NCBI RefSeq assembly: GCF_009687865.1
Contig: NZ_BLAE01000077.1
Location: 13,168 to 50,393 of the forward strand
Direction: 5' to 3'
DNA from: Acrocarpospora macrocephala
Lineage (GTDB): Bacteria; Actinomycetota; Actinomycetes; Streptosporangiales; Streptosporangiaceae
DNA length: 37,226 nucleotides
This document shows positions 6,035 through 10,944 of this stretch, piece after piece. The notes beneath the pieces are model-generated. The model was given only the letters and a program-made list of their open reading frames with translations. It searched no databases and was not told the DNA's origin. A program made the position numbers and the translations under genes. Position 1 is the first letter of the stretch. The number at the start of each line of letters is the position of its first letter.

Positions 6035-8491
6035 TCACGGGACGATGTTCACCAGCTTCGGCGCACGCACGATGACCTTGCGCGGAGCCCCGGACAGGTA
6101 CGACCGGACCTTGTCGGACTCCAGGGCCAGCACCTCCAGGTCAGCGTCCGAAATGTCCGGTGAAACTTCCAGCCGGTCGCGGACCTTGCCCGCCACCTGC
6201 ACCACGCACGTCACCGAGTCCAGCACCAGCAGCGCCGGGTCGGCGGCCGGCCATCCGGCCAGCGCCACCGACGGCTGGTGCCCCAGCCGCTCCCAGCCTT
6301 CCTCCGCAACGTACGGCGCGACCAGCGACAGCATGATCGCCAGCGTCTCGGCGGCCTCCCGGACGGCCGGATCGGCGGCGCCGGGCCCGGAGTCGATGGC
6401 CTTGCGCGTGGCCGAGGTCAGCTCCATCATGCGCGCCACGGCGACGTTGAACCGGTTGCTCTCCACCAGCCGGGTGACCTCGTCCAGGGTGCGATGGGTG
6501 ACCTTGCGCAGCGCCAGGTCCCCGGTGGCCGGGTCGACGCCGGGCGCGCTGGACACCTCGGTCATCACCCGGAACGCCCGCGCCAGGAACTTCTGCGACG
6601 CGAACGGGGACACATCCGCCCAGTCGATGTCGTCCTCGGGCGGCCCGGCGAACACCATGGTCAGCCGGACGGCGTCCACCCCGTACGCGTCGATCTGCTG
6701 CCCCAGGTCCACGCCGTTGCCCAGGTTCTTGGACATGGCCTTGCCCTCGTTGATGACCTGGCCCTGGTTCAGCAGCCGCAGGAAGGGCTCGACGAAGTCG
6801 ACCATGCCCATGTCGTGCAGCACCTTGGTGAAGAACCGGCTGTACAGCAGGTGCAGCACGGCATGCTCGACCCCGCCCACGTACTGGTCGATCGGCCCCC
6901 ACTTGCGGACCCGCTCCACATCGAAGGGCCCGTCCTCGTACGTCGGATCCACGTACCGCAGGAAATACCACGACGAGTCGACGAAAGTGTCCATCGTGTC
7001 GGTGTCGCGCTTGGCGGGACCCGCGCACTTGGGGCAGGGCACGTTCACCCAGTCGGTGGCCGAGGCCAGCGGGGACACCCCGCGCGGCGCCAGGGCTTCG
7101 CCGCGCAGGTCCGGCAGCGTCACCGGCAACTGCTCGTCGGGTACGGGCACCTCGCCGCAGTCGGGGCAGTGGATGATCGGGATCGGCGTCCCCCAGAACC
7201 GCTGCCGGGACAGCAGCCAGTCGCGCAGCCGGTAGTTGACCGTGGCCCGGCCGGTGCCGTGCCCCTCCAGGACCTCGATGATCCGGGCGATCGCCTCCGC
7301 CTTGGCCAGGCCGTCCAGCGGCCCGGAGTTGACCAGCGTGCCCTCGCCTGGCGTGGCGATCCCGGTCTCGCCCGGGTCGGCCATGCCGGTGTGCACGACG
7401 ACCCGGACCGGCAGCTCGAACTTGCGGGCGAAGTCCAGGTCGCGCTGGTCGTGCGCGGGCACCGCCATGATCGCGCCATGCCCGTAGTCGGCCAGCACGT
7501 AGTCGGCCGCCCAGACCGGGATGCGCTCCCCGTTGACCGGGTTGATCGCGTGCACGCCCAGGAAGACGCCGGTCTTCTCCTTGTCGGTGGCCAGCCGCTC
7601 GATGTCGGTCAGCTTGGCCACTTCCGCGCGGTACGCCTCCAGCGCGCCCAATTCCTCCGGAGCGCAGATCTCGGCGGCCAGCGGCGCGTCCGCGGCGACC
7701 ACGAAGAAGGTGGCGCCGAACAGCGTGTCCGGGCGGGTGGTGTAGACGGTGACCGGCTCCTCCCGGCCTTCGATCTGGAACCGCACGTCCGCGCCGGTGG
7801 AGCGGCCGATCCAGTTCCGCTGCATGGTCAGCACTCGCTCGGGCCAGCCGCCCTCCAGCTGCGCCATGTCGTCCAGCAGCCGGTCCGCGTAGTCAGTGAT
7901 CTTGAAGTACCACTGGGTCAGCTCGCGTCGCACCACCACGGCGCCGCAGCGCTCGCACTTGCCCTGCACGACCTGCTCGTTGGCCAGCACCGTCTGGTCG
8001 TTCGGGCACCAGTTGACCAGGCCGCCCTTCCGGTAGGCCAGGCCGCGCTCGAAGAACCGGTTGAACAGCCACTGGTTCCAGCGGAAGTACTCGGGGTCGC
8101 TGGTGTGCAGGCGGCGGGTCCAGTCGAAGGAGATGCCGTACCGCTTGAAGGAGTTGGCCTGGGTCTCGATGTTGGCGTAGGTCCACTCGGCCGGGTGCGC
8201 GTTGCGCTTGATCGCCGCGTTCTCGGCGGGCAGGCCGAAGGAGTCCCACCCGATCGGGTGCAGGACGTTGTAACCCTTCTGGAACCAGTAGCGGGCGACC
8301 ACGTCCGCGATCGCGAACACCTCGCCGTGGCCCATGTGCAGGTCGCCGGAGGGGTAGGGGAACATGTCGAGCATGTACTTACGCGGCCGGGGGTCGGCCG
8401 GGTCCTCGCTCGCGGCGTAGGGCTTCAGTTCCTCCCAGCGCGGCTGCCACTTGGCCTGCAGCGCCTGCGGGTCGTACACCTGCTCATCCAC
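6035..8491 (-). CDS. leuS: Leucyl-tRNA synthetase
   Basis: An 818-residue class I synthetase that charges tRNA-Leu, cytoplasmic. The HIGH motif is HMGH at 52-55 ([13 protein letters not shown]); the KMSKS-equivalent loop reads AMSKN at about 585-589 ([13 protein letters not shown]), slightly off the canonical sequence. The CP1 editing domain sits in the middle ([19 protein letters not shown] with the conserved T-rich [13 protein letters not shown] element), followed by an anticodon-binding domain and a C-terminal domain ending [14 protein letters not shown]. The start ATG at 8491 has AGGAGTGAACCG just before it. The gene has a long leader with a candidate leucine attenuator (8516-8623). It stands alone, with no co-directional neighbour close downstream. 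Confidence 0.97.
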
Positions 8492-8515
8492 GGTTCACTC
8501 CTGATTTATCGCCAC

Positions 8516-8594
8516 CTGCCCATAAGAAAACCCCCCGGCAAACAGCACGAGGGGCAGCCGCATCGAGGCTTGAGATCAGCTCACTCGATGCGGC
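8516..8594 (-). promoter_or_regulatory. Candidate leucine attenuator in the leuS leader
   Basis: On the minus-strand RNA, the 5' arm GCCGCAUCGAG (8594-8584) overlaps the end of the leader peptide and pairs perfectly (11 bp) with CUCGAUGCGGC (8567-8557) across a 16-nt loop. Immediately downstream is a U-tailed terminator (8524-8554). A competing pairing is possible: CUGCCC (8557-8552) with GGGCAG (8521-8516), which would break the terminator stem. A ribosome stalled on the Leu codons would cover part of the first 5' arm, the expected trigger. The element layout is seen; the switching mechanism is inferred. Confidence 0.6.
8524..8554 (-). terminator. Intrinsic terminator in the leuS leader (attenuator)
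   Basis: Minus-strand RNA CCCCUCG (8554-8548) pairs with CGGGGGG (8537-8531) over a 10-nt loop, one G-U pair, and is followed directly by UUUUCUU (8530-8524). It lies between the leader peptide and leuS, so it can only serve as a conditional stop. Confidence 0.6.
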
Positions 8595-8623
8595 CCGGTA
8601 AGAAGCAGGGTCTCCGCACGCAT
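8576..8623 (-). CDS. leuS leader peptide, 15 codons with three consecutive Leu codons
   Basis: The frame reads MRAETLLLTGPHRVS then TGA, using CTG CTT CTT for the leucine run; too short for usual gene calling. The ATG at 8623 is preceded by TAGTCT ending 6 nt upstream, a TAnnnT -10 at leaderless distance, and there is no Shine-Dalgarno sequence, so translation would begin at the RNA 5' end. The stop lies inside the loop of the following 11-bp hairpin. Ribosome-mediated attenuation by leader peptides is established for several actinobacterial amino acid operons; a leucine-sensing peptide before leuS makes regulatory sense. Alternative: chance ORF. Confidence 0.6.
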   Translation of the reverse strand: MRAETLLLTGPHRVS

Positions 8624-8754
8624 AACCCAAGACTAGCGCAGTCTGCAACCGGATCGCCGACGTTATCGTACGAGAGAGCGGATCTTACACGCGGAGTCAA
8701 CTGCCGATACCCGATGGTGATAGATCCGTTGTGACCGCTGGTGTCCCTTTCCTT

Positions 8755-8760
8755 TACCCT
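8755..8760 (+). promoter_or_regulatory. Putative -10 box for leaderless transcription
   Basis: TACCCT followed by 6 nt and then the GTG at 8767. No ribosome binding sequence precedes that GTG. The spacing matches the actinobacterial leaderless pattern; a possible -35 (TTGTGA, 8729-8734) is somewhat far. Confidence 0.45.
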
Positions 8761-8766
8761 CATCTC

Positions 8767-10899
8767 GTGGCGAACTCAGTCGAGCCGGGATCGGGCCCGG
8801 AATTCCGGCAAACGGATCTTCCGATGCAGGATCCGCCGACCGACCCCACGGGTGAGCAGTTCCGCGGGGCATTCTCGGGTTTCGCTGCGGTGCCCCCCGG
8901 GTCGCATGAGATCATGCCAGGCGCCCCTAATTCGGGCATGAACTCGGGAGGTCCCATGCCCTCGGAGCACGACGAGTCGCAGCGAGCCGCTGCTCGTGGC
9001 GGCTGGCCGGAGGTTCCCCCGGCCTGGCCCGAGGTCCCCCCGGCCTCCGGGCCCACCCCGCCGGGCCGCTCATTCGAGCCCCCGCCCGCCGCCGATCCGT
9101 ACGGCCAGCGCCCCTACCGGACGGGCGAGCACCCGGTCCTCCCGCCCCCGCTCAACGACTACGACCAGCAGCCCCGGGTGGGCCGCGGCGGCACCGACCC
9201 CTTCGGCAGACCGCTCTACCGCGACCCGCAGCCCGGCCAGCCGATGGAACCGCAGCCACCCCGCGACCAGCAACCCCGCGACTTCCAGTTCCGCGAACCC
9301 CCGCCGCGAGACCCTCGCGAGCAGCAGTTCCGCGATCCCCAGCCACGCGATCCCCGCGAACAGCAGTTCCGCGACCCTCAACCGCGTGACCCCCGCGAGC
9401 AGTTCCGCGAGCAGCCGCCGCGCGACCCGCAGTTCCGCGACCCGCAGCCGCTCGACCCGCAGTTCCGCAACCCGCAGCCGCTTGACCCGCAGTTCCGTGA
9501 CCCCCAGTTCCGCGACCCGCAGTCACAGGACCGCCACCCCCGAGAGGCATGGCAGCGAGAACCTGAGCACCCGGCCCACGAGCCCTTCTCGACCGGCCCC
9601 TTCGGCACGCCCACGCTCGGCCAGCCCGCACAGCCCGCACAGCATGGGCTACCCGGTCAGCATGGCCAGCCCGGGCAACACCTACAGCCCGGACAACACG
9701 GACAGCCGGGCCAGTTCGAGCAGCCCGGCCAGTACGAGCAGGCCCCGCCCCGCCACGGCAACCGCCCGCCCGAGCCCCAGCAGCAACCCGGCCCCCGCGA
9801 CCCCCAGACGTTCGGCATGGTGAGCCCGCAGGCTTTCGGAACCGGCGAAACCCCCCTCTACCGAGCGGACGCCTCCGCCCCACCGCAAGCCGCCCTACCC
9901 CAGCAATCCCCCGCCTACACAGGCCCGCAAACCGGCGAACACGGCGTCCCCCAGTTCCCGATGGCCGGCCAGCGCCCCCCGCAACAACAACACCCGCAGG
10001 GCCCGCAACACCCGCAGGCCCAGCAGCACCCGCAGGGCGACGACCAGTACAAGCCGTTCGTCACCGCCGGCCAGATCAGCGGCCCGAAGACCCCTCCCGC
10101 CCACCGCCAGCAGGAACTCTGGAACAACGTCTTCGGCGAGAACTACCAGGCCATCGAGGAGTACGAGGACGAGGAGCGCGGCCGCCCCATCTGGCTGTTC
10201 GCCCTCGCCGGTTCCGTCCTGATCGCGCTGATCGGGGCCCTGCTGTGGGCGTTCCTGGCGGGCCCGCTGGCCAGCAGCGACGACGCCGCCCCCAGCCAGC
10301 CCTCCCCGTCGCCGTCGAAGGCGTCCGCGTCCAACGCCTCCCAGCCCCAGGCCGCGAGCCTGCTGGAGTATGAGGGCACCCCGTCCCCCGTACAGGGCAG
10401 GATCGCCGACAGCGAGTCGCGGGTCTCGATCCCGAAGCTCGGCGGCCAGTGGAAGACGGACGTGGACCAGCAGAAGAACCTGGCCACCTACGGCTACGTC
10501 ACCCGGCAGTTCGTCAGCGCGGGCCTGACCACGAAGGGCAAGCCGCAGTTCGCCCAGGTCATGTCCGGCCCGCTGGCACAGGACCTGGCGGCCAAGTACA
10601 CCACGGCCGACGACCTGCGCCCGGTGCTGAGCGCGGTGGTCTTCAAAGCCAGGCAGAACCTGTTCCCGAAGGGCAACAAGGTGGCCAAGGTCGGGCAGCA
10701 GAAGCTGCGCGGCGGGATCGGCCAGCTCGCCGCCTACGAGGTGAGCGACGACGGCGGGAAGACGCTGGTGGTGGTCGCCGCGGTGAACACCGGCGCGCCG
10801 CTGCCGTCGATCGTCTACATGCAGGTGCCCGACATCAAGGACGATCTGCTCCCCGATGTGGGCACCGTGTTCAAGTCCATCAAGGTCGCGAACTCTTAA
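8767..10899 (+). CDS. Single-pass membrane protein with Pro/Gln/Arg-rich repetitive N-terminus; function unknown
   Basis: About 710 residues. Residues 1-460 are low complexity and probably disordered: a first block of imperfect repeats built on REQQFRDPQPRDP and DPQFRDPQPL (about 176-255), then HGQPGQ-type repeats (about 292-325), then Gln/Pro-rich sequence. One membrane segment lies at about 475-500 (WLFALAGSVLIALIGALLW), followed by a Ser/Pro linker and a 150-residue external domain ending FKSIKVANS that I do not recognise. The topology implies an intracellular disordered tail. The GTG at 8767 is chosen for its leaderless -10; an open frame extends to 8731. It is monocistronic, closed by a terminator. 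Similar tails occur in membrane scaffolds, but no function is claimed. Confidence 0.8.
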   Translation: MANSVEPGSGPEFRQTDLPMQDPPTDPTGEQFRGAFSGFAAVPPGSHEIMPGAPNSGMNSGGPMPSEHDESQRAAARGGWPEVPPAWPEVPPASGPTPPGRSFEPPPAADPYGQRPYRTGEHPVLPPPLNDYDQQPRVGRGGTDPFGRPLYRDPQPGQPMEPQPPRDQQPRDFQFREPPPRDPREQQFRDPQPRDPREQQFRDPQPRDPREQFREQPPRDPQFRDPQPLDPQFRNPQPLDPQFRDPQFRDPQSQDRHPREAWQREPEHPAHEPFSTGPFGTPTLGQPAQPAQHGLPGQHGQPGQHLQPGQHGQPGQFEQPGQYEQAPPRHGNRPPEPQQQPGPRDPQTFGMVSPQAFGTGETPLYRADASAPPQAALPQQSPAYTGPQTGEHGVPQFPMAGQRPPQQQHPQGPQHPQAQQHPQGDDQYKPFVTAGQISGPKTPPAHRQQELWNNVFGENYQAIEEYEDEERGRPIWLFALAGSVLIALIGALLWAFLAGPLASSDDAAPSQPSPSPSKASASNASQPQAASLLEYEGTPSPVQGRIADSESRVSIPKLGGQWKTDVDQQKNLATYGYVTRQFVSAGLTTKGKPQFAQVMSGPLAQDLAAKYTTADDLRPVLSAVVFKARQNLFPKGNKVAKVGQQKLRGGIGQLAAYEVSDDGGKTLVVVAAVNTGAPLPSIVYMQVPDIKDDLLPDVGTVFKSIKVANS

Positions 10900-10903
10900 C
10901 CAA

Positions 10904-10944
10904 CTGGACAGCCGCATAGGCGACTCATCGCCGCGGCTGTCCAG
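10904..10944. terminator. Bidirectional terminator hairpin
   Basis: A perfect 12-bp stem CTGGACAGCCGC (10904-10915) / GCGGCTGTCCAG (10933-10944), followed by ATCAATTT on the plus strand. It separates the convergent membrane-protein and P450 genes. Confidence 0.8.

Follow-up and report, generated by a model that had tools for sequence, protein, structure and literature searches.

In the 37,226-nucleotide stretch of Acrocarpospora macrocephala DNA analysed in this study (hereafter the window), the region upstream of leuS contains what is, with a probability of roughly 75% judged from comparative sequence evidence, a ribosome-mediated transcription attenuator that senses charged tRNA-Leu. Conservation indicates that the element is real and not a chance arrangement, and it belongs to the kind of leuS attenuator already known from Streptomyces. 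An initial annotation of the window had proposed that leuS is attenuated through a leaderless leucine leader peptide, and that interpretation as a whole is partly supported: the attenuation proposal gains strong support from comparison, and the suggestion that a leaderless leuS leader would be a neat new variant had been anticipated by a Streptomyces case (excerpts of PMC8079986). What had been predicted in two genomes of Streptomyces is extended by the present comparison to an element that is broadly conserved and supported by covariation, and whose conserved parts include no obvious base-pairing switch, leaving a testable gap.

The layout of the locus is given in Table 1. As first annotated, the 15-codon frame with its Leu run and the -10 hexamer ahead of it proved accurate in coordinates and description when read on the minus strand. 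The annotated hairpin overlapping the late codons and the U-tailed terminator directly after it are likewise present, and are conserved with compensatory changes. In the window, hairpin P1 consists of 11 Watson-Crick pairs and one G-U pair, begins 4 nt past the last Leu codon, and has a 5' arm that begins in the last part of codon 10 and ends early in codon 14 of the leader frame. As a single sequence the element folds with unexceptional stability (z -1.10, with 28 of 200 shuffles equally stable), and the case for it therefore rests on comparison. A simple consensus scan of positions 8300-9200 detected neither promoter nor terminator and thus missed the conserved terminator. T-box models are included in Rfam; no Rfam covariance model matched the window at its gathering score, and six loci searched at E up to 0.1 gave a single snoRNA match, whose score fell far short of the gathering value, so that membership of the T-box or another curated RNA family was not found in the window or these loci.

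Table 1. Features of the leuS leader locus, numbered by position in the window.
Feature	Position	Strand	Remarks
-10 hexamer TAGTCT	8630..8635	-	From sequence; 6 nt 5' of the leader ATG, leaderless-type start
Leader frame MRAETLLLTGPHRVS and stop	8576..8623	-	ATG 8623-8621, stop 8578-8576; 15 residues
Regulatory Leu codons CTG CTT CTT	8600..8608	-	From sequence; within MRAETLLLTGPHRVS
Hairpin P1	8556..8595	-	Arms GGCCGCATCGAG (8595-8584) and CTCGATGCGGCT (8567-8556)
Hairpin P2 with T-rich tail, intrinsic terminator	8524..8555	-	P2 8555-8530, tail to 8524; abuts P1
GGGCAG	8516..8521	-	Able to pair with CUGCCC at 8557-8552
AGGAG, likely leuS Shine-Dalgarno sequence	8498..8502	-	From sequence
leuS, leucine--tRNA ligase, presumed controlled gene	6035..8491	-	GTG at 8491; TIGR00396, 939.8 bits, E 1.4e-282

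A leuS query matched all 120 genomes of the family, some matches being partial or to other synthetases, and the upstream DNA was read in 110 (all except G011, G017, G019, G024, G041, G053, G082, G092, G094 and G117). Selection of leaders required TAnnnT 5-9 nt ahead of a start codon (ATG or GTG) and two or more Leu among the first 12 residues; by these criteria 72 of the 110 regions contained a leader and 38 did not, and one genome with a single Leu codon and P1 and P2 intact (G057) is not among the 72. Since the 72 leaders were chosen on TAnnnT, their -10 hexamers are not independent evidence; such evidence comes from a promoter-blind set defined by ATG and LLL within the first 14 residues, comprising 55 frames in 53 genomes. 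In 53 of these 55 frames the hexamer TAnnnT ended 6-7 nt ahead of the ATG, and in 52 of them exactly 6 nt ahead, compared to a rate of 1.7% in shuffled sequences, and the two frames lacking the hexamer are longer, with an upstream ATG and the usual leader inside. In S. lividans transcripts, the TAnnnT hexamer averages 6.3 nt from the start (excerpts of PMC8079986).

The leader and the terminator occur together. A terminator was found in 70 of the 72 regions with a leader versus 4 of the 38 without, two of the four (G057 and G059) being P2-like, and the Fisher value for this association is overstated by the relatedness of the genomes. A hairpin followed by a T-rich tail occurred in all 72 leader regions. 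The check proposed with the initial annotation, that of the Leu run and stems in close relatives, found them conserved (72 of 110 regions, with the P1/P2 covariation described below), so the claim was not refuted. Two genomes (G065 and G077, loci L007 and L008; LeuRS 88% identical) keep the -10 hexamer and a P2-like hairpin and have lost the leader ATG and Leu frame, a state that, judged from these sequences, appears to be a natural decay series of the leader.

The element also extends beyond the family. Under strict filters and at E up to 0.01, a covariance model built from the family leaders (R1) found matches in 36 of the 396 phylum genomes searched, and the best 22 of these matches (E up to 7.9e-12) all adjoin leuS; no match occurred in the 14 genomes listed for family f4. 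Among 80 named relatives, kept as nearest in LeuRS, R1 matched directly upstream of leuS in 60 (E up to 1.5e-8), in genera including Nonomuraea, Sphaerisporangium, Herbidospora, Actinomadura and Arthrobacter. Five gave weaker matches (three Planotetraspora and two Microbispora, one of the latter at E 0.75), and 15, including Thermobifida fusca, Nocardiopsis and Streptomonospora, gave none, one of the 15 being without upstream DNA. At 16 of the best 22 phylum loci (L113-L122, L124, L125, L128-L130 and L133), LeuRS is only 39-43% identical to that of the window, so that one and the same leader stands ahead of two LeuRS types that differ greatly; the leader may have persisted through a gene replacement of leuS.

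Compensatory change supports both hairpins. In an alignment (A1) of 66 of the 72 leaders, six with long P1 loops being omitted, the RNAalifold consensus consisted of P1 and P2 only, with no columns in common. Across the two hairpins 96.4% of cells were paired and two-sided changes occurred at 11 of 17 pairs, with P1 contributing 96.1% of cells paired and changes at 8 of 11 consensus pairs, and P2 97.0% and 3 of 6 pairs. Two-sided cells numbered 100 versus 33.1 +/- 6.2 in shuffles, an excess that relatedness alone can produce without structure; the control in which P1 and P2 were slid retains relatedness, and pairing in it fell to 39-53%. Geometry was measured in 130 of 136 distinct leaders (153 instances), the hairpin finder having given no measurement for G091, G115, L128, L133, L164 and L178. 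The gap between P1 and P2 was 0 nt in 91 leaders, 1 in 27, 2 in 11 and 3 in one (0-2 in 129 of 130), with the qualification that R1 roughly fixes this spacing, so that leaders found only by R1 are biased toward it, and that the 72 family leaders are independent of R1. The distance from the last Leu codon to P1 was 4-5 nt in 115 of the 130, and the span of P1 varied from 20 to 121 nt; a near-fixed junction next to such a highly variable loop suggests function.

These features are consistent with the following scheme. Transcription would begin at the leader ATG or close to it, and the ribosome would initiate without a 5' UTR. When charged tRNA-Leu is ample, the ribosome would reach the stop codon and cover the 5' arm of P1, whereupon P2 would form and terminate transcription; when it is short, the ribosome would pause at CTG CTT CTT, allowing P1 to form and transcription to read through into leuS. 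Expression of leuS should rise when charged tRNA-Leu is short, and thus P1 should oppose P2. Once formed, P1, having no slack to P2, would hinder closure of the base of P2 in the RNA exit channel. That P1 acts in this way, and not by competing for base pairs, is a tentative sub-step, suggested because P1 and P2 abut in most leaders and have no strand in common. We infer translation of the leader, stalling, termination in vivo and the opposition of P2 by P1. The literature searched, at the level of titles and abstract openings, yielded no recognised precedent for an upstream hairpin hindering intrinsic termination.

Folding of the 72 sequences with a masked ribosome footprint suggests that, of the two hairpins, it is P1 that the ribosome would gate. 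Mean values for the five states (no ribosome; ribosome at the first, second or last Leu codon; ribosome at the stop codon) were 0.98, 0.96, 0.74, 0.34 and 0.04 for P1, compared to 0.94, 1.00, 1.00, 1.00 and 0.95 for P2. The hairpin next to the Leu codons is thus conserved and ribosome-gated in silico, and P2 forms with or without it; because P2 forms in every masked state (means 0.94-1.00), equilibrium folding displays no switch. Additionally, P1 is mostly masked with the ribosome at the last Leu codon, and stalling there would therefore not favour P1. Evidence against the scheme comes from four of the 72 sequences, all of one clade (G087, G112, G058 and G095), in which P2 was 0.1-0.19 both without a ribosome and with one at the stop codon, and 1.0 with a stalled ribosome. 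With the ribosome at the stop codon, P1 reached 0.49-0.57 in these four and in G071. The 38 of 110 family regions in which the selection criteria detected no leader likewise count against the scheme.

In the classical trp/leu scheme, the antiterminator and the terminator share a strand. Among the alternatives to the reading preferred here, the one that fares best is a classical attenuator of this type, in which a base-paired antiterminator excludes the terminator, either through CUGCCC/GGGCAG or through an extended P1 invading the foot of P2; such an arrangement is unlikely. The CUGCCC/GGGCAG pairing put forward in the initial annotation can form in the window but is not conserved, a helix of this type with at least six pairs occurring in the window, in the three genomes of its genus examined and in 11 of the 72 leaders in all. 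The mean longest alternative helix was 4.06 versus 3.94 with shuffled downstream sequence. Lacking any excess over shuffles, the pairing was rejected as a conserved antiterminator, and the claim that it would break the terminator was given up both on this ground and since its 3' half lies beyond the terminator and is therefore transcribed later. All four genomes examined from the genus of the window nonetheless keep the GGGCAG pairing, one of them (G106) showing a two-sided change, and for leuS of Streptomyces excerpts of Seliverstov et al. (PMC1262725) describe both an antiterminator and a terminator hairpin.

The geometry also offers the base-paired antiterminator some room. Ten of the 130 measured leaders are atypical, having a longer P2 stem in the finder output or a P1 that lies 6-10 nt from the Leu run, and in several the start of P1 is shifted because the longer P2 takes bases from the foot of P1. 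In those ten leaders P1 and P2 may share a few bases, and a short competition would be possible. Against this, nearly every sequence retains P2 in each of the masked states, and the consensus fold contains P1 and P2 alone, without shared columns. A mutually exclusive terminator and antiterminator of the trp/leu type was not found in the folding, consensus or pairing tests; the leuS leader may nonetheless work like trp/leu-type attenuation.

Several comparisons place the leader among known systems. In excerpts, Seliverstov et al. 2005 (PMC1262725) predicted classical leuS attenuators in S. avermitilis and S. coelicolor, and the S. lividans TK24 peptide LeuL2, MRAVRLLLSEPR, was described as leaderless from RNA-seq data, with a hairpin and a U stretch (PMC8079986). 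MRAVRLLLSEPR is encoded exactly by 9 of 11 loci of one genus (f3, g70). The window shares with these Streptomyces elements a three-Leu leader peptide, a hairpin and a U-tailed terminator upstream of leuS; it differs from the LeuL2 type in its longer leader (15 residues) and in the P1 arm lying inside the frame, and its LeuRS is approximately 42% identical to the LeuRS behind leaders encoding MRAVRLLLSEPR. Regulatory codons in a short leader, the position of the ribosome and an intrinsic terminator are features in common with enterobacterial trp/leu attenuation, as are biased and sometimes rare regulatory codons (excerpts of PMC1183508). However, most leuS leaders differ from that system in that no strand sharing between antiterminator and terminator was found, and in their leaderless-type start. 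Titles retrieved for leuS attenuation, leader peptides and leaderless leaders included none on the family of the window.

The Leu codons themselves are strongly constrained. Among the 130 distinct leaders, the last Leu codon is CTT in 116, CTC in 13 and CTA in one, although CTT accounts for only 71 of 4369 Leu codons (1.6%) in leuS genes (background sample, 71 of the 80 loci) and for none of the 69 in the window leuS. Of the 55 promoter-blind frames, 52 use the common CTG as their first Leu codon. Sensing through a rare codon is our preferred, inferential explanation of the terminal CTT, because CTC would pair with purine-rich RNA at least equally well. Codon bias is known in attenuation leaders, the rare codons of the leu operon being the textbook case, later refined by selective tRNA charging (excerpts of PMC1183508). 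Pairing between the Leu run and the 3' arm of the terminator (A1 columns 32-38 with 120-114, seven pairs, mean 93% paired) was set aside, since it is a low-specificity match of pyrimidines to purines and has the wrong sign, as a stalled ribosome would mask it.

It is improbable that control acts at a later step, as in the leuA LEU element, with the free Leu run pairing with RNA beyond the terminator and a stalled ribosome freeing that RNA. Among 76 cluster representatives of the 130 leaders, a Leu run with its own downstream segment gave 13.15 versus 12.59 with swapped partners (P 0.017), and 16 of the 72 leaders reached p 0.05 against shuffles. However, the effect is small, lineage-patchy and inflated by related genomes, and the window itself is not significant (p 0.16 against shuffles; rank 0.22 against swapped partners). 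In addition, this pairing arises only once the terminator is passed, and a conserved terminator would stay unexplained. The leuS leader resembles the leuA LEU element, as presented in excerpts of Seliverstov et al. 2005 (PMC1262725), in its Leu run closely followed by a GCCGCG hairpin, and R1 finds leuA leaders weakly, placement before leuA being a point for later-step control; the leuS leader differs in having a terminator, which is lacking in the description of the leuA element, where a pseudoknot is given together with a base stem reaching the Shine-Dalgarno sequence. Weak R1 matches precede leuA at four loci (L134, L136, L138 and L139) and leuC at one (L135), with three more loci (L137, L140 and L141) left unassigned; R1 matches ahead of leuA, leuC and cimA also speak for the attenuator reading of the leuS leader.

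A second R1 match in the same genome (E 1.9e-5; G000:C25:92403-92512, minus strand; L142/L225) lies before cimA (TIGR00977), where MTYRLLIIGRRAG, with Leu and Ile codons, is followed in order by P1, one base and a terminator. Of 30 cimA loci examined, 23 are preceded by a like leader; in 23 loci that fit a search expression, P1 and P2 are one base apart and four bases separate the last Ile codon from P1, the expression having allowed only gaps of 0-3 and distances of 3-6. The -10 hexamer of the cimA leader is less clear than that of the leuS leader. No report of the cimA leader was found, a search on citramalate synthase leaders and attenuation having returned, by title, only non-actinobacterial work. 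A leaderless small protein of the ordinary kind, or a terminator that constitutively lowers leuS transcription with no leucine sensing, would suit the compatibility of P1 and P2 in nearly all folded states but is very improbable, given that rare Leu codons form a conserved run whose distance from P1 is nearly fixed and that a like geometry with Leu/Ile codons occurs before cimA.

These leaders might constitute a distinct attenuator type, in which a ribosome-gated hairpin abuts the terminator (0-2 nt) without competing for its bases and blocks its closure at the RNA exit channel, rare codons are sensed, and the leucine and isoleucine genes served are leuS, cimA and perhaps leuA across actinobacteria, though this reading is less likely than not. 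Such a nearly fixed junction of a ribosome-gated hairpin with a terminator, which recurs ahead of cimA, would amount to a simple design that departs from the usual trp model.

Between leuS and a cytochrome P450 gene (10951-12279), four long open frames tested in window positions 8731-10917 had no Pfam match. Closer to the leader, 82-105 bases upstream of its ATG, lies CGGATCTATCACCATCGGGTATCG (window 8705-8728, minus strand); in the genome of the window no other copy was found within two mismatches, and one was found at three (a shorter pattern being searched). CGGATCTATCACCATCGGGTATCG is exactly conserved in 6 genomes, at 8 loci, 3 of them in the genome of the window.
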